Part shown: positions 7,254 through 40,173 of the stretch, one piece after another
Numbering within the stretch: position 1 is the stretch's first letter
How the letters are laid out: each line of letters opens with the position of its first letter
Source of the DNA: a virus
DNA: 40,173 nt
Direction: 5' to 3' (one strand)
Virus record (IMG/VR): IMGVR_UViG_3300031576_000150
Location: 1 to 40,173 of that record
Translations under genes and position numbers: made by a program
Notes under the pieces: generated by a model
What the model was told of the DNA's origin: nothing
Database searches by the model: none
The model's input: only the letters and a program-made list of their open reading frames with translations

Positions 7254-8101
7254 GCGTGGCGGCTATGAACTGGGCGCTGGAGCAGCGCGATGTGCCGCCC
7301 GCGGAGCGCTTCGTGCTGCTCGTGCTGGCGAACTTCGCCGACGCCGGCGGGCGCTGCTGGCCGAGCCAGGCGGCGCTGGCGGAGAAGACCGGCTATCCCG
7401 GGCGCTCGATCAAGCGCTATCTGGCGCGCCTGGCGGCGGCGGGCAAGCTTGGCCGCGAGCGCTCGGTGCGCGGCGACGGCCGTTTCGGCGGCACCGTCTA
7501 CCGCCTCGGGCTGTTGCCGCCGGCACCCGAATACGCGCCGGACGACGCCGCGCCAGGGGCCACCATGGCCCCTGGCGATGGGCCTGGACCAGGGGCCACC
7601 ATGGCCCCTGGCGATGGGCCTGGACCAGGGGCCACCATGGCCCCTGGACCAGGGGCCAAAACCGCCGCCACCAGGGGCCAAAACCAGCCGCACCAGGGGC
7701 CAATGGTGGCCCCCGGTAAGAATACTGTTTCCTTAACCGTCAAAGAGAACCGTCAAAAGGAACCATCAAGGACGGTGTGTGCGCGCGAGGCCGGCGCGGC
7801 GCCCAAGGCGCCGGCCTCGGCGCACACGAACGAGCCGCAGGCCTCGGCGCCCGCGGACCAGCCGGCGGCGGGAGCGGGACCGCTATCGGACGGGCAGCGG
7901 GCCAGGCTGGAAAGCGTGCTCGGCAGGGGGGAGTTCGCGGCCTGGTTCGAGGGCTGCCTGTGGGACGCGGGCCGGCGGGCGCTGCTGGCGACGAGCGCGT
8001 TCCGGCGCGACTACATCGCCGTCCAGTTCGGCGGCCGCATCGCGGAGGCGTTCGGTGGCAAGGTCGAGGTCCAGGTCCAGGCCGGGGCGCCGCGCGGCTA
8101 G
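7250..8101 (+). CDS. Replication initiator-like protein (HTH_36 plus DnaA-N-like)
   Basis: The 283-residue product has an N-terminal winged helix (residues 1-88) of the HTH_36 type found in phage and plasmid initiators: CWPSQAALAEKTGYPGRSIK, then RYLARLAAAGKL. A long linker (about 97-165) is encoded by palindromic iterons. The C-terminal segment (about 218-275; LESVLGRGEFAAWFEGCLW, then LATSAFRRDYIAVQFGGRIA) resembles the DnaA N-terminal domain that recruits helicase. As with lambda O, the putative origin lies inside the gene. The ATG is set by an ATGA overlap. Function is inferred from domains and the internal repeats. Confidence 0.75.
   Translation: MSVAAMNWALEQRDVPPAERFVLLVLANFADAGGRCWPSQAALAEKTGYPGRSIKRYLARLAAAGKLGRERSVRGDGRFGGTVYRLGLLPPAPEYAPDDAAPGATMAPGDGPGPGATMAPGDGPGPGATMAPGPGAKTAATRGQNQPHQGPMVAPGKNTVSLTVKENRQKEPSRTVCAREAGAAPKAPASAHTNEPQASAPADQPAAGAGPLSDGQRARLESVLGRGEFAAWFEGCLWDAGRRALLATSAFRRDYIAVQFGGRIAEAFGGKVEVQVQAGAPRG
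7553..7716 (+). repeat. Iteron-like palindromic array within the replication gene
   Basis: Three 23-bp hairpins (7553-7575, 7589-7611, 7625-7647) have the stem CCAGGGGCCA/TGGCCCCTGG and a CCA loop. They repeat with a 36-bp period, each separated from the next by the same 13-bp spacer. Three further CCAGGGGCCA arms follow (7649, 7671, 7693), the last with an imperfect inverse. All lie in the linker between the two domains of the replication protein and are translated as GPGATMAPGD-type repeats. An AT-rich array follows at once. Confidence 0.88.
7735..7773 (+). other. AT-rich 13-mer array, candidate duplex-unwinding element of the origin
   Basis: Three tandem 13-nt units start at 7735, 7748 and 7761, with cores AACCGTCAAA, AACCGTCAAA and AACCATCAAG. 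The surrounding 7717-7770 stretch is clearly AT-rich inside a gene of about 70% G+C. Iterons followed by tandem AT-rich 13-mers is the layout of bacterial oriC and lambda-type origins. The origin function is inferred. Confidence 0.65.
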
Positions 8102-17641: not shown

Positions 17642-18781
17642 ATGGCGGTGGTCCGGCTGCCCCGCCGCCGCTGGTCGGCGGCTGACTGGCTCGGCGACCG
17701 CGCCTCGGCGCCGGGCTGGTTCAACGCCGCCCTGGCCGAGGCCGGCGGGATCTCCGCCACGCTCGGCCAGGCGGTGGAGACCGACGCCGCGCAGGCCATC
17801 GCCTGGGCGCCGAAGCGGCGCCTGCTCGGGCAGGTGGCGGAAACCGGCGCGGCGCTGGCGGTCGCGGCGCGCAAGACGCTGGTCCTCGGCCAAGCGTTCG
17901 AAACCGGCGCGGCGCTGGCGGTCTCGCCGCGCAAGACGCTGGCGCTCGCCCAGGCGGCGGAAACCGGCTTGGCGCTGGCGGTCGCGCCGCGCAAGACGCT
18001 GGCGCTGGGCCAAGCGGTGGAAAGCGGCCTGGCGCAAGCCATCGGCCGCGTCAAGCTCAAGGCGCTCGGCCAGGCGGCGGAAACGGACCTGGCGCAGGCG
18101 GTGGCGTCCGGCGGCGTCCCGGTGCTCGGCCAGGCGCTGGAGAGCGATAGCGCCCAGGCCATCGCCTGGGCGCCCAAGCGCCGCCTGCTCGCCCAGGCGG
18201 CCGAGGCCGGCCTGGCGCAAGCCCTCGGCCGGACGAAGGCGAAGCTGCTGGCGCCGGCGGCCGAGGCCGATCTGGCGCCAGCCCTCGGCCGGGCAAAGGC
18301 GAAGCTGCTGGCGTCGGCGGCCGAGGCGGCGCTGGCCCAGGCGCTGGGGCGGGCCAAGGCGCGCCTCGCCGCCCAGGCGGCCGAAGCCGATCTCGCCCCG
18401 GCCATGGCCGGCGCCAAGCGCAAGGCCTTCGGCCAGGCGGGCGAAAGCGATCTAGCCCAGGCTCTGGGGCGGCTCAAGGCGCGGCTCGCAGCCCAGGCCG
18501 CCGAGGCCGGCCTGGCCCAGGCGCTGGCCCGGGCGAAGCGCAAGGCGCTCGGCCCGGCGGCGGAGACGGATGCCGCGCTGGCGGTCACCTTCCTCGCCGC
18601 CGTGCAGCCGGGGACGCTGGTGCTGGCCGACACGGGGTTGGCGGGGCTGGCGGCGGGCGACGCGGGCCCGGCGGCGCTGGCGCCGGCCGACGGCGGCCTG
18701 GCGGCGCTCGTGCCCGGCGACGCCGCGGCGGCCGCCGCCGCGCTCGCCGGCGACAAGGTGGCCGTGCTGGTGATCAACTGA
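17642..18781 (+). CDS. Tandem-repeat protein (about 14 units of about 20 residues)
   Basis: The 379-residue product has a short basic N-terminus (WSAADWLGDRASAPGWFNAA). From about residue 41 it holds about 14 tandem units with consensus LGQAxETDxAQAxxxxKxKx, and the C-terminus switches to a shorter Gly/Ala/Asp repeat (ADTGLAGLAAGDAGPAALAP). The repeat is near-identical in the first units at DNA level (60-63 bp period) and drifts later, a sign of recent expansion. The placement among virion genes suggests a fibrous or surface protein; a periodic helical or solenoid fold is inferred. The function is unknown. Confidence 0.75.
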   Translation: MAVVRLPRRRWSAADWLGDRASAPGWFNAALAEAGGISATLGQAVETDAAQAIAWAPKRRLLGQVAETGAALAVAARKTLVLGQAFETGAALAVSPRKTLALAQAAETGLALAVAPRKTLALGQAVESGLAQAIGRVKLKALGQAAETDLAQAVASGGVPVLGQALESDSAQAIAWAPKRRLLAQAAEAGLAQALGRTKAKLLAPAAEADLAPALGRAKAKLLASAAEAALAQALGRAKARLAAQAAEADLAPAMAGAKRKAFGQAGESDLAQALGRLKARLAAQAAEAGLAQALARAKRKALGPAAETDAALAVTFLAAVQPGTLVLADTGLAGLAAGDAGPAALAPADGGLAALVPGDAAAAAAALAGDKVAVLVIN

Positions 18782-20055: not shown

Positions 20056-20083
20056 TCCGCGCCCGCCACGGCGCTCTTGTATT

Positions 20084-20200
20084 CGCTTCCCATCCCGTCA
20101 AACGGCGCGCACCCCTCGCGGTTGGCCGGGATGGGAAGCGCAATAAACAACCGGGATGGGAAGCGCAATAAACAACCGGGATGGGAAGCGCAAAAAAACC
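20084..20200 (+). repeat. Covarying palindromic element, copy C, with tandemly repeated 3' arm
   Basis: The outer stem CGCTTCCCATCCCG (20084-20097) pairs perfectly with 20127-20140; both arms differ from copies A, B and D in matched positions. The central TCAAACGG and GGTTGGC are kept, but the inner stem is degraded. The 3' arm is part of a 25-nt unit repeated in tandem: 20126-20150, 20151-20175 and a partial 20176-20200. This fills most of the 166-bp gap between the head-closure and gp10-like genes. Confidence 0.85.
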
Positions 20201-20221
20201 GGAAACAAAGAGGGCTATCCC

Positions 20222-20602
20222 ATGGCGAGATCGCGGGTCATCGGCGCGGCGCGGCTGCAGCGGGCGCTGTTGAAATTGCCCGACGACGCCCGGCGCGAGC
20301 TCCGGGCCGCCATCGCCGGCGGCGCGGCGCAAGTCGCGGCGGCGGCCGCCGCCCGGGCGCCGGCGCGCACCGGGGCGCTCAAGGGCGCCATCGAGACGCG
20401 GCTGGCGAAGTCGGGCCTCGGCGCCACGATCGGCGTCTTCAAGCGCTCGAAGAAAACCCACGTCGCCCGCTTCCTCGAATTCGGCACCGTCAAGATGGCG
20501 GCGCGGCCCTGGTTCTTTCCCGCCTTCCGCGCCTTGCGGGCGCGCCTGCGCGGCCAGATCGAGGCCGCCGCGCGGCGGGCGTTGAAGCGGGGCGGGCATT
20601 GA
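20222..20602 (+). CDS. HK97 gp10-like head-tail component
   Basis: The 126-residue product has the family pattern: ARLQRALLKLPDDARRELRA, RAPARTGALKGAI, THVARFLEFGT and ARPWFFPAFRALR. It belongs to the HK97-gp10/tail terminator-associated group. The ATG at 20222 was preferred over an upstream frame extension that is only palindromic element sequence. The gene ends inside a 17-bp tandem duplication. Confidence 0.87.
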   Translation: MARSRVIGAARLQRALLKLPDDARRELRAAIAGGAAQVAAAAAARAPARTGALKGAIETRLAKSGLGATIGVFKRSKKTHVARFLEFGTVKMAARPWFFPAFRALRARLRGQIEAAARRALKRGGH

Positions 20603-22291: not shown

Positions 22292-22522
22292 GTGCTCGGC
22301 TGGGCGCCGGCGGATTTCTGGCGGGCGACGCCGCATGACCTCGACGCGGCGCTGGGCGGCTTCGCCGAACGGCATGGGGCCGGTTCCGCCGGCGGCGGCC
22401 GGGGCCGCCGTGCGGGCGGCGGCGGGGCGGCGATGACGCGGGCCGAGTTCGAGGACCTGAAGCGGAAGCTGGCGCGCCGCGCCGGCGGCGGGACGAAAGG
22501 AAGGGAAGATGGCCACGCTTGA
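22292..22522 (+). CDS. Second tail assembly chaperone (TAC_6-like)
   Basis: From the first usable start (GTG 22292) the product is 76 residues: VLGWAPADFWRATPHDLDAA, then a Gly/Arg-rich linker and TRAEFEDLKRKLARRAGG. The motif FWRATPHDL is diagnostic for the PF09550 chaperone. The family's conserved N-terminus (PWRRVRELGLG) is encoded upstream in the same frame without a start codon, inside the end of the previous gene. It overlaps the tape-measure start by 14 bp. Confidence 0.78.
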   Translation: MLGWAPADFWRATPHDLDAALGGFAERHGAGSAGGGRGRRAGGGGAAMTRAEFEDLKRKLARRAGGGTKGREDGHA

Positions 22523-24875
22523 CCAGCTGACGGTACAGCTCAACGCCAACACCGAGCCGCTGCGCCGCGAGCTGGCGCGCGCCGCGGCGGCGGTGGAGCA
22601 GACCGGGCGGCGCATCGACACTTCGCTGGGGGCCATGGACCGCGCCTTCGCCGGCCTCGGCCGGGCGGCGCGGCTGTTCGGCGCCGGCCTCGGCGCGGCG
22701 GCGCTGGTCTCGTTTGGCCGCAACGTCATCGGCGCTGCGGCCAATCTCGGCGAGCTGGCGGAGCAGCTCGGGGTCTCGGCCCAGGCGCTGCAGGTCTACC
22801 GCTTCGCCGCCGCCCAGGCCGGGGTCTCGCAGGCGGAGCTGGAACAGGCGCTGGCGAAGCTGACGGCGAGCCTCGGGGAAGCGGCGTTCGATTCGGCAGG
22901 CCAAGCCGCGCAAGCGTTCCGCCGTCTCGGCGTCGATCTTGACGCGGTCAATGGCGCCGCGAATCCCACCGAGGCGGCGTTGCGCGCCGTCGCCGAGGCG
23001 GCGCGGCGCAGCGGCGCGGATTCCCGCTTCGCCGCCGACGCCAAGGATGTTCTTGGACGCTCGGCCCAACGGTTGGTGCCGATGCTCAAGGACGGCGCGG
23101 CGGGCCTCGATGAATTCGCCCGCCAGGCGCCGAAGATTTCCAAGGCCAATATCGATGCCGCCGACGCATTGAGCGACGCATGGGAGAGGGGATTGGCCAG
23201 GGTCAGTGCTGCGGCGGCCGAAGCGGCTCTGTCCTTGTTGCGCTTTTTCCGGCCGGGTCCGGAAACGGCCAGTGACGAAATCGCGCGGGTTACGGGCGAG
23301 ATCGAGGAATCGGTTACGCGGTTGGTGAACCTGCGCGCGCGCGCGACGCGGACAGCGCCGCTCAGCGACATCATCCGCGATGAAGAAGCGCGCCTCGCGG
23401 CGTTGAATGCCCGCTTGGCGTTGCTGTCCGCGCCGGAGATTGAACCTGAACCGCTCAAGCTCGACATCCGCCCGACGAAGCAGTTCCTCGACAGCCTGGA
23501 GGAGTCGCGCCGGCAGGCGATCGCCGACGCCGAGAAGCTGGAGAAGGCCGAGGCCGAGGGCATCGAGCGGGCGCGCCGCCTGCTCGGCGCGCGCGACGAA
23601 CTGGCCGCCGCCGGCGCCCGCGAGATCGCCGACAACGAGCTGCGCCTCGCCGCGCTCAAGGTCTCGGGCGAGGAGTATGAAAAGGTCAACGTGCTGATCG
23701 AGCGCAACAACGCGCTGCGCGCCGCCGGCATCCCGCTGACCGAGGAGGAGATCGCCGCCAACCGCGCGGTGGCCGAGACCATCGGCCGCCAGCGCGCGGA
23801 AATGAACCAGCTGCAACAGGCGGCGGCGGACGCCAAGGCGGCGGCGCGGGATTTCTCGCACGCCATCGGCAACGCCTTCGAGGACGCGGTTGTCAAGGGC
23901 GGCGACCTGCGCGCCGTGTTGCGCGGCGTGCTGGAGGATATCCAGCGCATCATTTTGCGGATGACGGTGACCAAGCCGCTGGAGAATTTGCTGACCGGCG
24001 CCCTCGGGAACGCATTTGGCGGATTGTTCGGCGGCGGCAATGCCGTCCAGCTTGCCGGCGGCGGACTGTCGGCCTTCGGCGGGCCGCGCCAGCATGGCGG
24101 GCCGGTGGACCGCAACCGCCCCTATCTGATCGGCGAGGAGGGACCGGAGCTGTTCACGCCGCATGTCCCGGGCATGATCGTCCCGAACGATCAGTTGCGG
24201 CGCATGTACGAGGGCGGCGGACAAACGCCGGGCACGGGGCCTGGGCTTGGCGGCAAGTACGGCCGCGGCTTCCCCGACTTCGCCAGCTACGCCGATTTCT
24301 ACAACCGCAACCCGTCGATCCTGCGCGACGTGATGGAGGCCGTCGCGCCCGGCCCCATCGCCGGCCTGCTGGGGCTGGCGGCGCGCGCGTTCGGCGCGAC
24401 CCCGGGGATCCAGAGCGCGCCGGGCGAGGGCTTCGGCGCGGTGAACGAGAGCGGCTTCGGCGCCGGAACCGCGTTCGCCGGTTCGCCGGAGCTGGGCGGC
24501 CAATACGCCGGCGGATCGAGCCCGGCCGGCGGCCAGGGCGGCGCGGGCAGCCAGGCCGACCCGGTGGGCACCGACCCCACCGGCGGCACGGCTGCGTTCG
24601 CCTTGGGCGGCGTGCCGCCGCTCCACCGCGCCAGTCTTGTCGGCGAACGCGGGCCGGAGCTGTTCGTCCCCCGGGCGGCGGCCGGCGCGGCGCGGGGCGG
24701 CGGCGGCACGCTGGTGGTGCACATCAACAACGTGATCGACGCGCGCGGCGCCGAGCTCGGCGTCGAGCCGCGCATTCGCCAGGCGATGCGGGAGACCGAG
24801 CTGCGCACGCTGTCGGCGGTGCGCCGGCTGGCCAACCAGGGCGGCGGCTTCGCCCGCGACGTTGGGCGGAGGTAG
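22509..24875 (+). CDS. Tail tape-measure protein
   Basis: The 788-residue product has a hydrophobic segment (about residues 55-80), long helical and coiled regions (about 320-460), and C-terminal GEEGPELFTPHVPGMIV and GERGPELFVPRAA repeats typical of siphovirus and lambda-like tape measures. The N-terminal half contains LGVSAQALQVYRFAAAQAGV, as in GTA-like tape measures. The length sets the tail to roughly 110-120 nm, by the usual 0.15 nm per residue. Shine-Dalgarno AAGGAAGGGAAG. The stop at 24875 is followed by a palindromic element. Confidence 0.94.
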   Translation: MATLDQLTVQLNANTEPLRRELARAAAAVEQTGRRIDTSLGAMDRAFAGLGRAARLFGAGLGAAALVSFGRNVIGAAANLGELAEQLGVSAQALQVYRFAAAQAGVSQAELEQALAKLTASLGEAAFDSAGQAAQAFRRLGVDLDAVNGAANPTEAALRAVAEAARRSGADSRFAADAKDVLGRSAQRLVPMLKDGAAGLDEFARQAPKISKANIDAADALSDAWERGLARVSAAAAEAALSLLRFFRPGPETASDEIARVTGEIEESVTRLVNLRARATRTAPLSDIIRDEEARLAALNARLALLSAPEIEPEPLKLDIRPTKQFLDSLEESRRQAIADAEKLEKAEAEGIERARRLLGARDELAAAGAREIADNELRLAALKVSGEEYEKVNVLIERNNALRAAGIPLTEEEIAANRAVAETIGRQRAEMNQLQQAAADAKAAARDFSHAIGNAFEDAVVKGGDLRAVLRGVLEDIQRIILRMTVTKPLENLLTGALGNAFGGLFGGGNAVQLAGGGLSAFGGPRQHGGPVDRNRPYLIGEEGPELFTPHVPGMIVPNDQLRRMYEGGGQTPGTGPGLGGKYGRGFPDFASYADFYNRNPSILRDVMEAVAPGPIAGLLGLAARAFGATPGIQSAPGEGFGAVNESGFGAGTAFAGSPELGGQYAGGSSPAGGQGGAGSQADPVGTDPTGGTAAFALGGVPPLHRASLVGERGPELFVPRAAAGAARGGGGTLVVHINNVIDARGAELGVEPRIRQAMRETELRTLSAVRRLANQGGGFARDVGRR

Positions 24876-24887
24876 TGCTCTTGTCGG

Positions 24888-24945
24888 CGCCTCCCGATCC
24901 GTCAAACAGCGAGCCAACCCCGGCGGTTGGCCGGATCGGGAGGCG
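24888..24945 (+). repeat. Covarying palindromic element, copy D, overlapping a ribosome-binding site
   Basis: The 14-bp stem CGCCTCCCGATCCG (24888-24901) pairs with 24932-24945. The 11-nt bulge TCAAACAGCGA, inner stem GCCAACC/GGTTGGC (24913-24919 with 24925-24931) and loop CCGGC are all perfect. It occupies most of the gap between the tape measure and the next tail gene. The 3' arm contains GGGAGG (24938-24943), the only Shine-Dalgarno for the ATG at 24953, so folding would hide it. Confidence 0.9.
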
Positions 24946-24952
24946 ATAAAAA

Positions 24953-25570
24953 ATGCCGATCCTGACCCTGCCCGCCCAGCCGGCTTTCGCGCGCTCGCGC
25001 TTCGGGCTGCTGAGCAACACCCAGCAGTTCGTCTCGCCCTTGAACCGGAGCGCGCAGACGCTGGAACTGCCCGGCGCGCGCTGGTTCGGCGAATTCACCT
25101 TGCCGCCGATGAAGCGGGCCCTAGCGGCGCCCTGGCAGGCCTTCCTCGCGCAACTGCGCGGCGGCGCTGGGCGCTTCTACGCCGGCGATCCGGACGGCAA
25201 GGTGGCGCGCGGCGCGGCGACGGGCACGCCGTTGGTCAACGGCGCCGGCCAGGCCGGCGTCAATCTGGCCACCGACGGCTGGACGGCCAGCGTCACCGGC
25301 ATCCTCAAGGCCGGCGACTACGTCGCTTACGACGCCGGCGGCGTCCGCCAGCTGCACGTCCTCACCGCCGACGCGAACTCCAATGGCGCCGGCCAGGCTA
25401 CGCTCGCCATCGAGCCGGCGATCCGGACCAGCCCGGCCGACAACGCGGCGCTGACCGTCAGCGCCGCCACCTGCGTCATGCGCCTCGTGGACGACGCCCA
25501 GGCGGCCTGGGACGCCGACGCCGCCGGCGTCTACGGCCTAAGCTTCGCCGCCGTCGAGAGCGTGTTCTAG
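24953..25570 (+). CDS. Distal tail protein
   Basis: The 205-residue product reads FGLLSNTQQFVSPLNRSAQT, LELPGARWFGEFTLPPMKRA, WQAFLAQLRGGAGRFYAGDP and GTPLVNGAGQAGVNLATDGW, a pattern of phage distal-tail and baseplate hub proteins in the position of GTA gp12. It is the first gene after the tape measure, as expected for a distal tail ring. Its translation start depends on the Shine-Dalgarno held in palindromic copy D. Confidence 0.78.
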   Translation: MPILTLPAQPAFARSRFGLLSNTQQFVSPLNRSAQTLELPGARWFGEFTLPPMKRALAAPWQAFLAQLRGGAGRFYAGDPDGKVARGAATGTPLVNGAGQAGVNLATDGWTASVTGILKAGDYVAYDAGGVRQLHVLTADANSNGAGQATLAIEPAIRTSPADNAALTVSAATCVMRLVDDAQAAWDADAAGVYGLSFAAVESVF

Positions 25571-36069: not shown

Positions 36070-36233
36070 TGGACGGCCTCCAGGACGGCGCGCACCTGCG
36101 CCGGGGTGAAGAGGAGCTTACCGCGCCCGGGGGCGCGGGAGAAGCCGAGGCCGGCGACGACGCGGCGCAGCGCGCGCTCGCCCAGCGGCGCCAGCCGCCG
36201 GAGCTCGGCGAAGCCGATGAGCGGTGCCGTCAT
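35895..36233 (-). CDS. Excisionase-like HTH protein overlapping integrase
   Basis: The first 55 residues form an AlpA/Xis-like winged helix: LIGFAELRRLAPLGERALRR, VVAGLGFSRAPGRGKLLFTP, AQVRAVLEAVQ. The next 57 codons run in the -1 frame relative to integrase over 175 bp and look like non-native sequence, so either the protein simply ends in an out-of-frame tail or a frameshift fuses the DNA-binding domain to integrase. The start overlaps the ParB-like gene's stop. By position it is the candidate directionality factor. Confidence 0.7.
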   Translation of the reverse strand: MTAPLIGFAELRRLAPLGERALRRVVAGLGFSRAPGRGKLLFTPAQVRAVLEAVQCASSPPAAARATAIGFTAAGTPAASTRSRRARATRRVLSGLLPPSSPASANVIRLRR

Positions 36234-38026
36234 TCGCCCGCGCCGGGAGCGGCGGGCGCGCGGGTTTTGCCTTGCTTCTTGGCCGGGCGGCCGCGCTTCC
36301 CGGCGTGGTCTTCGCGCTTGCCGGGCCGGTCGCCTTGCGCTTCCCGGCCCGCCGGCCCGGCGTGGTTTTTGCGCTTCCCGATCCGGCCAACCGCCGGGCT
36401 TGGCCCGCTGTCCGACGGATCGGGAAGCGACGACGAGCGCTTGAAGGCGAGCATGGCGGGGACGTAATCCTTCCGCCGGCGGGCGGCGGCGAGGAGGGCG
36501 TCGGCGCCGCCGGCGCCGGCGCCCTTGAGCTCGACGCCGAGCTCCTTGGCCATGGCGGCGCGCTCGCCGGGGCCGCAAAGGGCGAGGAAGGTCTTGTCCA
36601 GCGCCGCCGGATGCACGGCGGCGCCGATGGCGGCGCCGAGGCCGGCGATCTCGTCCCCGGCGTAACCATTCAACAGGCTGGCGACGGCGGCGGCGAGGCG
36701 GGCGGCGGCGCCGCCGCCGCCGGCGGCGACATGGGACCGGATGGCGGCCAAGTGGACCGCGCGCACCGCGCGCTCGAGGGCGAAGGGGTCGAACCTCTCG
36801 CGGACCTTGCCCGCCGGCGCGGCGGCGCGGGCGGGGGTTTTTTCCGCCGCGCGGCGCTGGCGCTCGCGGTCGATGACGCCCGCGTGCACGGCGACCCGCA
36901 AGCTGTCGCGGGCGACGAGGATCAGCGCCCCGACGCCGGCGCGGCTTTGGCCGCGCCCGGCCATATTGACGGGGGTGCCGCTGGCGCCCGTGCGGCCTTG
37001 GCCGCGCCCGGCCATATTGGCGGCCTTGGGCTGGCGCGCATAGGGCCAGGGCGGATCGCGGCCCTCGGCCAGCTCCCACTCGTCGCGGCCGAGCTTGACG
37101 TCCACCCACGGCCACTGGGCCGCCAGCTCCCGGCGCCGGGCGGCCACCGCCCGGTGCTGCAGGCGGCGGAAGAGGACGACGTCGTCGGCGCAGGGGCGGC
37201 CCTGGTCGTCCTCGACCGACGCGCCGGCATAGGCCGTAGGCGGAAAGAGGGCGTTGGCCAGCGGCAGCATTTTCTCGCGCACGGCGGCGCGCAGCTGGGC
37301 GGCGTTCTGGATGACGGCGCCGCCGTCCTCGTCCTCCGGGTCCTTGGGGAAGAGCAGCGGCAGCAGGTCCTTCTGCCGCGCGCCCGGCGCCCGGCAGAGC
37401 TCGCGCGCCTGCTCGGGCGTGATGGCGCCGGCCTCCAGCGCCGCCAGCCCCTCCGGCGCCAGGCGCTGGAGCAGGTCGAGGCGCAGCTGCACGTGGCGTT
37501 GCGAGCGCCCGGCCAGGCGGGCGATGTGTTCGGTCGCGGCGCCGGCGGCGCGCAGGCGGCGGTAGGCGCGGGCCTCCTCGAGCGGCCTCAGGTCGTGGCG
37601 GGCGGCGTTCTCGGCCAAGCCGGTGGCGACGACGGAATCGTCGTCGAGCGCGCGCACGGCGACGGGGAGGGCAAAATCGGCCGGCAGGCGGCCGTCGGCC
37701 ACCGCCAGCCGCGCCGCCCGCCAGCGGCGCTCGCCGGCGGCGATCTCGAATTCGTCGCCGCCGCCCGGGCGCGGGCGGACGATCAGGTTCTGCAGCACGC
37801 CCTGGGCGCAGATCGAGTCGGCGAGCTCGGCCAAGGCGGCCGGGTCGAAGGCCCGGCGCGGATTGAGCGGCGAGGGATGCAGGCGGCCGAGGGGGACCAG
37901 CCGCGGCGCCGGCTGGGCGGGCGCCGGCGAACGGCGTTCGCCTTCTTCGCCGGACAGGATGGCGGGCGCCGGCGAACGGCGTTCGCCTTCTGCGCCGGAC
38001 GCGATGGTCGCCTGGGCGGCGGTCAT
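36230..38026 (-). CDS. Large ParB-like nuclease-domain protein
   Basis: The 598-residue product carries the ParB N-terminal domain (about 40-160; PLNPRRAFDPAALAELADSI, GVLQNLIVRPRPG, AAGERRWRAARLA with the GERR box at 98-101, TGLAENAARHDLRPLEEARA) and an HTH (HIARLAGRSQRHVQLRLDLL). The long C-terminal half is unlike partition ParB and resembles plasmid/phage ParB-type proteins. No ParA is present, so segregation is doubtful. The first 40 residues contain two 15-residue repeats and the last 80 are encoded by palindromic copy E and its half-arms. Located in the left early operon with ATGA overlaps on both sides. Confidence 0.85.
   Translation of the reverse strand: MTAAQATIASGAEGERRSPAPAILSGEEGERRSPAPAQPAPRLVPLGRLHPSPLNPRRAFDPAALAELADSICAQGVLQNLIVRPRPGGGDEFEIAAGERRWRAARLAVADGRLPADFALPVAVRALDDDSVVATGLAENAARHDLRPLEEARAYRRLRAAGAATEHIARLAGRSQRHVQLRLDLLQRLAPEGLAALEAGAITPEQARELCRAPGARQKDLLPLLFPKDPEDEDGGAVIQNAAQLRAAVREKMLPLANALFPPTAYAGASVEDDQGRPCADDVVLFRRLQHRAVAARRRELAAQWPWVDVKLGRDEWELAEGRDPPWPYARQPKAANMAGRGQGRTGASGTPVNMAGRGQSRAGVGALILVARDSLRVAVHAGVIDRERQRRAAEKTPARAAAPAGKVRERFDPFALERAVRAVHLAAIRSHVAAGGGGAAARLAAAVASLLNGYAGDEIAGLGAAIGAAVHPAALDKTFLALCGPGERAAMAKELGVELKGAGAGGADALLAAARRRKDYVPAMLAFKRSSSLPDPSDSGPSPAVGRIGKRKNHAGPAGREAQGDRPGKREDHAGKRGRPAKKQGKTRAPAAPGAGE
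36372..36429 (-). repeat. Covarying palindromic element, copy E, inside the ParB-like gene
   Basis: The 14-bp stem CGCTTCCCGATCCG (36372-36385) pairs with 36416-36429. On the minus strand the bulge TCGGACAGCGG, the inner stem and the 5-nt loop follow the same plan, with one mismatch in the inner stem. It is translated near the ParB C-terminus in the same frame as copy B. Three extra half-arms (GCGCTTCCCGGC-like, at 36293, 36314 and 36337) follow in the gene's 3' end. Confidence 0.87.
36941..37019 (-). repeat. 28-bp direct repeat, 51-bp spacing, in the ParB-like gene
   Basis: A 28-bp unit at 36941-36968 (containing CGCGCCCGGCCATATTG) recurs at 36992-37019 with one mismatch. The protein repeats NMAGRGQ, spaced by 17 residues. 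The 51-bp period equals that of the repeat at 38050-38151. Confidence 0.8.
37916..38005 (-). repeat. Two 45-bp tandem repeats with internal palindrome
   Basis: Units at 37916-37960 and 37961-38005 differ by a few bases. Each contains GGCGAACGGCGTTCGCC, a near-perfect palindrome. They encode two copies of GEEGERRSPAPA-like sequence at the N-terminus of the ParB-like protein. The palindrome also occurs once inside the DUF6950 gene (about 26196-26212). Confidence 0.85.
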
Positions 38027-38457
38027 GGGGCGGGATCCCCTGGACCGCCGTCGAGCGCGGCCAGCGCCGCGGGGGCGCCAACGGCGCCCTCGCCGTTACG
38101 GTCGAGCGCGGTCAGCGCCGCGGGGGCGCCAACGGCGCCCTCGCCGTTACGGTCGAGCGCGGCCAGCGCCGCGCTCACGGCGGCGGCGGAGAAGCCCAAG
38201 CCGAGGCGGCGGAACTGGGCACGGGTGGCGCGCAGCCGGCGGGCGAGGCGCGAGGGCGGCGCCGGCACGGGCAGCGGGCGGGCGCGGGCGTAGTCGTCGA
38301 CGCCGACGGCGAAGGCGCGCAAGGTCGGGGGGTAGAGCAGCAGCACCGCCTTGTAGCCGCGGCGCAGCACGAGGAAGTTGCGGTAGCCGGCGCCGGCCTT
38401 GGGGTGGTTCAGCCACAGGCGCTCGAAGGCGGGCGGGTAGCGCAGGTCCGGGGTCAT
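38023..38457 (-). CDS. Hypothetical left-operon protein with C-terminal repeats
   Basis: The 144-residue product has a conserved-looking N-terminus (LRYPPAFERLWLNHPKAGAG, YRNFLVLRRGYKAVLLLYPP), a Pro linker and basic helix, then 17-residue repeats added by the 51-bp DNA repeats. I do not recognise the N-terminal family. The ATGA overlaps on both sides place it between the 38454-38750 gene and the ParB-like gene. Confidence 0.68.
   Translation of the reverse strand: MTPDLRYPPAFERLWLNHPKAGAGYRNFLVLRRGYKAVLLLYPPTLRAFAVGVDDYARARPLPVPAPPSRLARRLRATRAQFRRLGLGFSAAAVSAALAALDRNGEGAVGAPAALTALDRNGEGAVGAPAALAALDGGPGDPAP
38050..38173 (-). repeat. 51-bp tandem repeats (2.4 copies)
   Basis: Units at 38050-38100 and 38101-38151 are nearly identical, and a partial third extends to 38173. 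Each carries GGCGCCAACGGCGCC. They encode ALDRNGEGAVGAPAAL-type repeats at the C-terminus of the 38023-38457 gene product. The size is a multiple of three, so the frame is kept. Confidence 0.9.
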
Positions 38458-39683: not shown

Positions 39684-40061
39684 TCAGGGCCGCGCCGGCG
39701 ACTGGGCGCGCAGGCGGCGCCAGTCGGGGCTGTCGGCGAGCGCGGCGCCGCAAGACCGGCAGCGGTCGGCGGCGAGGGGCAGGGTGACGCCGCAGGCCGG
39801 GCAGGGGCGCTGCTCGCGCCCGTAATCGGCCGGCGGCGGCGGCGGCACCAATAGCTTGGCGAGCTTCGCGATTTCCTCGGCGGGCGAGGGACCTAGTTTT
39901 TCAACGCAGCGGGAAAAGACGTAGGGGATGACGGCGATCGCCAGGGCGATGGCGCCGATGGCGGCTTCCTGGGGCGCGCCCTTGGCTCCGATCAAGCCAA
40001 AGAATAAGACGGCGGCGGCCAGGCAGGCGGCGAGAAACGTGACGGCGTAGCAGAAACGCAT
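39684..40061 (-). CDS. Membrane protein with C-terminal zinc ribbon
   Basis: The 125-residue product has two hydrophobic segments (about residues 5-27 and 34-50), a charged middle with a Pro-rich stretch (LLVPPPPPADYG), and a zinc ribbon CPACGVTLPLAADRCRSCGA. The layout is the same as in the Imm-like gene just upstream, whose stop lies 4 bp before this start across the contig join. Probably a second lysogeny/superinfection factor; the function is inferred. Confidence 0.75.
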   Translation of the reverse strand: MRFCYAVTFLAACLAAAVLFFGLIGAKGAPQEAAIGAIALAIAVIPYVFSRCVEKLGPSPAEEIAKLAKLLVPPPPPADYGREQRPCPACGVTLPLAADRCRSCGAALADSPDWRRLRAQSPARP

Positions 40062-40173
40062 GGCCTCATCCTCCGGGTCTTGGCCCTAGCGAATCGGCGT
40101 CAGCTCCCGCCACTTTCATGCGTGCGGCGGCGGGAAGATCGCGGCCGCAGAAGCGGCAGACCTTGGCCTCGGG
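40047..40173. repeat. Terminal direct repeat, second copy
   Basis: This copy is identical to bases 1-127 and shows the contig closes on itself. See the entry at 1-127. Confidence 0.9.

Follow-up and report, generated by a model that had tools for sequence, protein, structure and literature searches.

We analysed a virus record of 40,173 bases with a GC content of 72%, which we call the window. A direct repeat of 127 bases lies at its two ends (positions 1-127 equal positions 40047-40173). The genes of the window encode a terminase, head, neck and tail proteins, an integrase, a repressor-like protein, a DNA methylase and a ParB-like protein. Judged from this gene content, the virus is a temperate siphophage. 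Relatives of its TerL are scattered and reach up to 59%. The closest of them (L147) is a short contig of 6.4 kb without the palindromic element described below, and hence no empty site can be read from it.

The element of interest lies between two tail genes. The tape measure protein gene (22509-24875, + strand, named by a PHROGs search) ends with a TAG at 24873-24875. The gene for the distal tail protein, Dit, follows on the same strand (24953-25570; phrog_1302, E 5e-42). Between the two genes lies a gap of 77 nt, most of which is a palindrome of 58 nt (copy D, 24888-24945, + strand) that scores 89.6 bits with the family model. The tape-measure stop is upstream of this palindrome, as the original prediction had stated, but the distance is 12 nt instead of the 13 bp given there.

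Copy D consists of an outer and an inner stem. On the + strand, the 5' arm of the outer stem is CGCCTCCCGATCCG (24888-24901) and the 3' arm is CGGATCGGGAGGCG (24932-24945), and 14 of 14 positions form Watson-Crick pairs. The inner hairpin (24913-24931, + strand, from sequence and fold) has a 7-bp stem, GCCAACC/GGTTGGC, and a loop of 5 nt. It is stacked on the 3' side of the outer stem, with a one-sided loop of 11 nt on the 5' side. The 3' arm holds GGGAGG (24938-24943, + strand), a Shine-Dalgarno (SD) sequence with a duplex energy of -10.3 kcal/mol with the anti-SD and a spacing of 9 nt to the Dit ATG at 24953. A longer Dit with an earlier start is excluded by a TAA at 24947-24949 in the same frame. 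The original prediction had described the 14-bp stem, the GGGAGG in its 3' arm and the ATG, all of which are seen in the sequence. It had also called GGGAGG the only SD before Dit, and GGGAGG is the only well-placed one. What it overlooked is a second SD, GGAGG at 24868-24872, together with a short frame that GGAGG possibly drives.

The predicted structure is more stable than shuffled sequence. For the mRNA from 24860 to 24970, which the original prediction had proposed to fold, we obtain -53.3 kcal/mol (z -3.68), with none of 200 shuffles equally stable, and the stem that includes the SD is predicted to form. The hairpin of copy D alone is predicted at -39.8 kcal/mol. The main role of such a stable hairpin could lie in the processing or stability of the mRNA between tape measure and Dit, either as a REP-like 3' block or as an RNase III site. 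This role would be in line with REPs, which PMC3733652 places mostly downstream of coding regions and describes as plausibly transcribed. Cleavage in the stem should, however, cut the SD arm too, and we regard this explanation as very unlikely. An intrinsic terminator was rejected: a scan limited to loops of 3-8 nt gave no site in 24600-25200 on either strand, and by eye the stem is followed on the + strand by ATAAAAAATG, which has no T run. Nor did a known structured RNA emerge, with no Rfam match at the gathering score in the window.

Copy D is one of five copies of a dispersed 58-nt palindrome in the window. Copies A (2310-2367, + strand) and B (2410-2467, + strand) lie in frame inside the ORF 2067-2858. 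Copy C (20084-20140, + strand, 57 nt; repeat and family-model search) lies upstream of a neck gene that starts with the ATG at 20222. Copy E (36372-36429, - strand; family-model search) lies in frame in the C-terminal tail of the ParB-like gene (36230-38026, - strand), whose product carries ParB_N and HTH_ParB domains. The family model, built from the same five copies that it scores, gives them 73-90 bits, and the next best sites reach 17 (opposite-strand readings aside). We infer that A, B and E were inserted in frame; homologues lacking the element were not found.

The copies differ in their surroundings. A and B stand in tandem, 100 nt apart, and by eye their host ORF has an HTH-like C-terminal part. 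The reading frame of copy A differs from that of B and E. Single CGCTTCCCGG half-sites accompany A, B and E; the window has 5 of them where 0.54 are expected, and those near copy E encode repeats such as GKRxxHAG. Next to copy C, a 25-nt unit is repeated about 3 times (20126-20202) and is made of the copy C 3' arm and an A-rich tail, which suggests slippage or a one-ended copying event.

The outer stem is 100% paired in all five copies. In four of its 14 pairs both partners have changed, in no pair has just one of them changed, and when the partner was slid by 1-3 columns no double changes were left. The shuffle control is weak with five sequences: 28 of 500 shuffles reach 4 such pairs and 1 of 500 reaches the covariation score. 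These joint changes also bear on the idea that a phage protein, for example the ParB-like protein, binds to the palindromes. Centromere sites are scattered in phage N15, and the present phage does encode a protein with ParB_N and HTH_ParB domains, within whose gene copy E is found. However, arms that change together fit pairing and not a fixed recognition sequence. Furthermore, an integrase is present and no ParA was found among the 36 ORFs given to PHROGs, a subset of the window ORFs. A role as protein-binding sites is thus highly improbable.

Copy D appears to split a gene pair that is normally abutting. Among 17 related loci, 13 could be resolved, and in these the distance from tape-measure stop to Dit start is -4 to +11 nt. 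Two of the 13 (L096 and L098) have a second, shorter frame ending further upstream, and the longer was taken; L099 and L101-L103 share the same gap, look alike and may count as one. L100 is at a contig edge, and L105 and L106 were left out as unresolvable. In L139 a CDS of unknown function is annotated upstream and stops 1 nt ahead of Dit. Within the window, copies C and D lie in gaps of 166 and 77 nt, wider than any other of the 25 gaps between structural genes (the next has 48 nt). The wide gap, together with five diverged copies, fits the description of the palindrome as mobile in the original prediction. If the flanks of copy D are joined, the GGAGG at 24868-24872 falls 10 nt from the Dit ATG. 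Hence GGAGG was probably the original SD of Dit, with some uncertainty about the exact boundaries of the element.

The scans that we ran gave no true copy of the element outside the window. A core pattern matched 7 stretches in viral contigs and 85 in genome contigs, and those outside the window have at most 7 contiguous outer-stem pairs compared to 14 in the matched window copies. A search with a 3' pattern gave 0 matches. Half patterns gave 8 stretches for the 5' half and 2 for the 3' half, with the other half absent by eye. With blastn, the copy D region against named phages and the A-B region against plasmids gave nothing but short matches (6 records and 1 record, respectively). The family model had a best E of 0.11 over 91 related viral loci, found nothing over 10 genomes or records, and gave two matches over 385 genomes from the class of G001. 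These negatives are weak because the number of first-look candidates scored per genome was limited. One of the two matches, in G387, is a different palindrome of similar build but other sequence.

That genome, from the class of a Bradyrhizobium locus, contains four dispersed long palindromes of its own (L140, L142, L143 and L144), which have a long outer stem with differing arms and a similar inner part. Searches of viral contigs found no relatives of the tail fibre protein or of the ORF that carries copies A and B. No close relative has the element. Our literature searches returned no work on REP hairpins with a Shine-Dalgarno in bacteriophage genomes and none on palindromic repeats in phage genomes, which is not proof of absence. 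By title, nothing on point appeared for MITEs combined with an SD or for coupling of tape measure and distal tail genes.

The element resembles known families of bacterial palindromes and departs from each of those compared in its make-up. Rickettsia palindromic elements (RPEs) are inserted between genes and in frame within genes (PMC10969869 and PMC3733652), and the window element likewise lies between genes and in frame in genes (A, B and E). According to PMC10969869, RPEs are about 150 bp long with a conserved peptide, whereas the window element has 58 nt, belongs to a phage and has copies that are read in different frames. REPs of the GTAG and CGTC superfamilies are described in PMC3733652 as short dispersed palindromes, mostly transcribed and some within genes, with the CGTC type predominant in Alphaproteobacteria. 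The window element is also a short dispersed palindrome with some copies within genes.

PMC3733652 defines both REP superfamilies by a GTAG or CGTC motif that stands unpaired at one terminus, and CGTC REPs by a stem of 8-9 bp with AT pairs in the first two positions, a loop of 4-5 and a CCA tail. The window element, in contrast, has CGTC nowhere but at the inner edge of the outer stem (CCGTCAAAC) and no end tag. Its 14-bp stem starts with CG and carries an 11-nt one-sided loop and an inner 7-bp stem. REPs have many copies per host genome; of the window element, five copies were counted in the phage, and the core-pattern scan of genome contigs gave no true copy. No REP-type transposase was named among the ORFs scanned. 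By its ends and stem, the element falls outside the definition of GTAG/CGTC REPs, and by its length it falls outside that of RPEs.

The stem is predicted to hide the Dit SD almost completely. All 6 of 6 SD bases have a predicted probability of 0.000 of being unpaired. Opening the SD window (-16 to -6) would take 22.3 kcal/mol, more than at any other of the 29 phage starts compared (the second most costly needs 18.0). This ranking is approximate, as 27 of the 29 starts were chosen automatically by SD score. None of 300 random positions reaches this value (mean 7.7, sd 3.5). For a wider window (-18 to +12) Dit is only 4th of 29. The central claim of the original prediction, that the Dit SD is sequestered in the mRNA, thus has good support at the level of prediction. 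With 16-22 kcal/mol needed to open the SD, initiation by free 30S subunits at Dit should be very poor.

Does sequestration alone describe the locus? One option in the original prediction was that Dit is simply kept low. Residual translation would then rely on a breathing stem, on standby binding or on tape-measure ribosomes that scan onward, and a leader frame would play no part. The fully paired SD agrees with this, and Dit is probably needed in few copies per virion. Sequestered sites can furthermore be translated via standby sites, as described for tisB in PMC7708055. Yet a cost of 16-22 kcal/mol would leave almost no Dit initiation, and a ribosome at the tape-measure stop gives no help in the model. 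The Dit gene is also probably essential. Overall, we consider sequestration alone unlikely.

Alternatively, copy D could be mobile DNA that is merely tolerated. The SD in its arm would be incidental and no useful regulation would follow. Dit would be translated adequately via the A-rich spacer, S1-assisted unfolding or translation during transcription. Several properties of the family point in this direction. GGGAGG is present in 3 of the 5 copies (A, B and D) regardless of context, so its presence in D needs no selection. Copies A, B and E sit within coding sequence. Copy C leaves the SD-like AGAGGG of the downstream neck gene free, outside the stem, and hence sequestration is a property of D and not of the family. 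However, the predicted accessibility of the Dit SD is extreme. Moreover, the 5' arm is transcribed first, and the hairpin should close once the SD emerges. We therefore judge a purely passive insertion to be rather unlikely.

The original prediction also offered ribosomes arriving from the tape measure gene as a way to relieve Dit. In its simple form this idea is not supported. With a terminating ribosome covering 24860-24888, the modelled cost of opening the Dit SD is 20.0 kcal/mol, compared to 16.2 kcal/mol in the free mRNA. The tape-measure stop is upstream of the stem, and a ribosome there leaves the stem closed in the model. Coupling as first proposed, without a short frame, is unlikely; for it to be plausible, a ribosome would have to enter the element.

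Known cases of coupling by RNA unfolding allow a comparison. In f1 VII/IX, MS2 coat/lysis and rpmI-rplT, a hairpin silences the downstream start, and ribosomes that enter or occlude the hairpin open it (PMC12548453). For f1 VII/IX the same paper reports that coupling is kept at +62 nt, where part of the hairpin still lies within the truncated gene, but disappears at +89 nt, where the stop is well upstream of the hairpin. The lack of direct help from a terminating tape-measure ribosome agrees with this description of f1. As in these systems, the Dit SD is predicted to lie inside an inhibitory structure. Unlike in these systems, the hairpin is an inserted dispersed palindrome and the tape-measure stop precedes it, and passage of a ribosome through it would depend on a short frame.

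A candidate frame of 22 codons could do so. It starts with a TTG at 24881 and ends at 24949 (+ strand, from sequence); an alternative start, the GTG at 24875, overlaps the tape-measure stop. The frame crosses both arms of copy D, and its stop, the TAA at 24947-24949, lies 3 nt before the Dit ATG. Its SD would be the GGAGG (24868-24872, + strand), and the 13-mer before the TTG has a duplex energy of -10.8 kcal/mol, a value that 0.23% of 13-mers sampled in steps of 7 nt attain. In the model, placing a ribosome on the TTG, with 24866-24897 covered, brings the cost of opening the Dit SD down from 16.2 to 8.4 kcal/mol, and for ribosomes further into the element the cost is 7.7-9.7. The 22-codon frame could thus relay ribosomes to Dit.

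Other properties of the frame call for caution. Frames of such geometry are found at 3.1% of 20,000 random anchors, a post hoc figure, and at 0.095% if an SD of -8 or stronger is also required. Since the GGAGG may predate the insertion, about 3% is the fairer chance figure. Upstream of its start, the frame stays open for 422 codons in DNA of 72% GC, so its openness is no evidence. Its SD is also predicted to be partly paired (unpaired probabilities 0.016-0.38), with an opening cost of 11.6 compared to a random mean of 7.7. Furthermore, TTG is a weak start codon.

Taken together, we propose the following account. A REP/RPE-like palindrome, copy D, would have inserted between the tape measure gene and Dit and parted Dit from its likely original SD, the GGAGG at the tape-measure end. 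The replacement SD would be the one that happens to sit in the 3' arm of copy D. As the 14-bp stem is predicted to lock this SD, free 30S subunits would start Dit very poorly, and Dit translation would most likely need a ribosome that enters copy D. The likeliest route is that tape-measure ribosomes re-initiate at the TTG at 24881 or the GTG at 24875, read 22-24 codons through the palindrome and terminate at the TAA. They would finally re-initiate at the Dit ATG. We favour this account as a whole tentatively, giving it a little less than an even chance. REP/RPE-like palindromes and translational coupling are both known already; what we describe is a variant that combines them. If the account is true, it shows how a REP/RPE-like palindrome can enter a densely packed phage operon without abolishing expression: the arm provides a new ribosome-binding site and also brings that site under translational control. 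This would be a simple case of a selfish-looking repeat that gains a regulatory role.

The palindrome might even be a portable coupling cassette that combines an SD in the 3' arm, the 5' arm that masks this SD and a frame that stays open across both arms. We consider this quite improbable. If it were true, insertion would turn the direct stop-start coupling of abutting genes into a relay through a leader frame, and the downstream gene would be made only while ribosomes flow through the upstream gene.

Copies C and D have GCTCTTGT in common in their 5' flanks (20073-20080 and 24877-24884, respectively), just before the stem. From this shared flank, the mobile unit may reach about 10 nt beyond the stem. 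The TTG start of the 22-codon frame derives from the same GCTCTTGT flank.

The window holds other repeats as well. A separate tandem palindromic repeat at 7553-7647 consists of 2.6 copies of a 36-nt unit, CCAGGGGCCACCATGGCCCCTGGCGATGGGCCTGGA, that are 100% identical. The gene at 17642-18781 (phrog_14065, unknown function) has many 60-nt tandem repeats in its coding sequence, and a 51-nt unit is repeated in tandem at 38050-38173 (2.4 copies, 97% matches).
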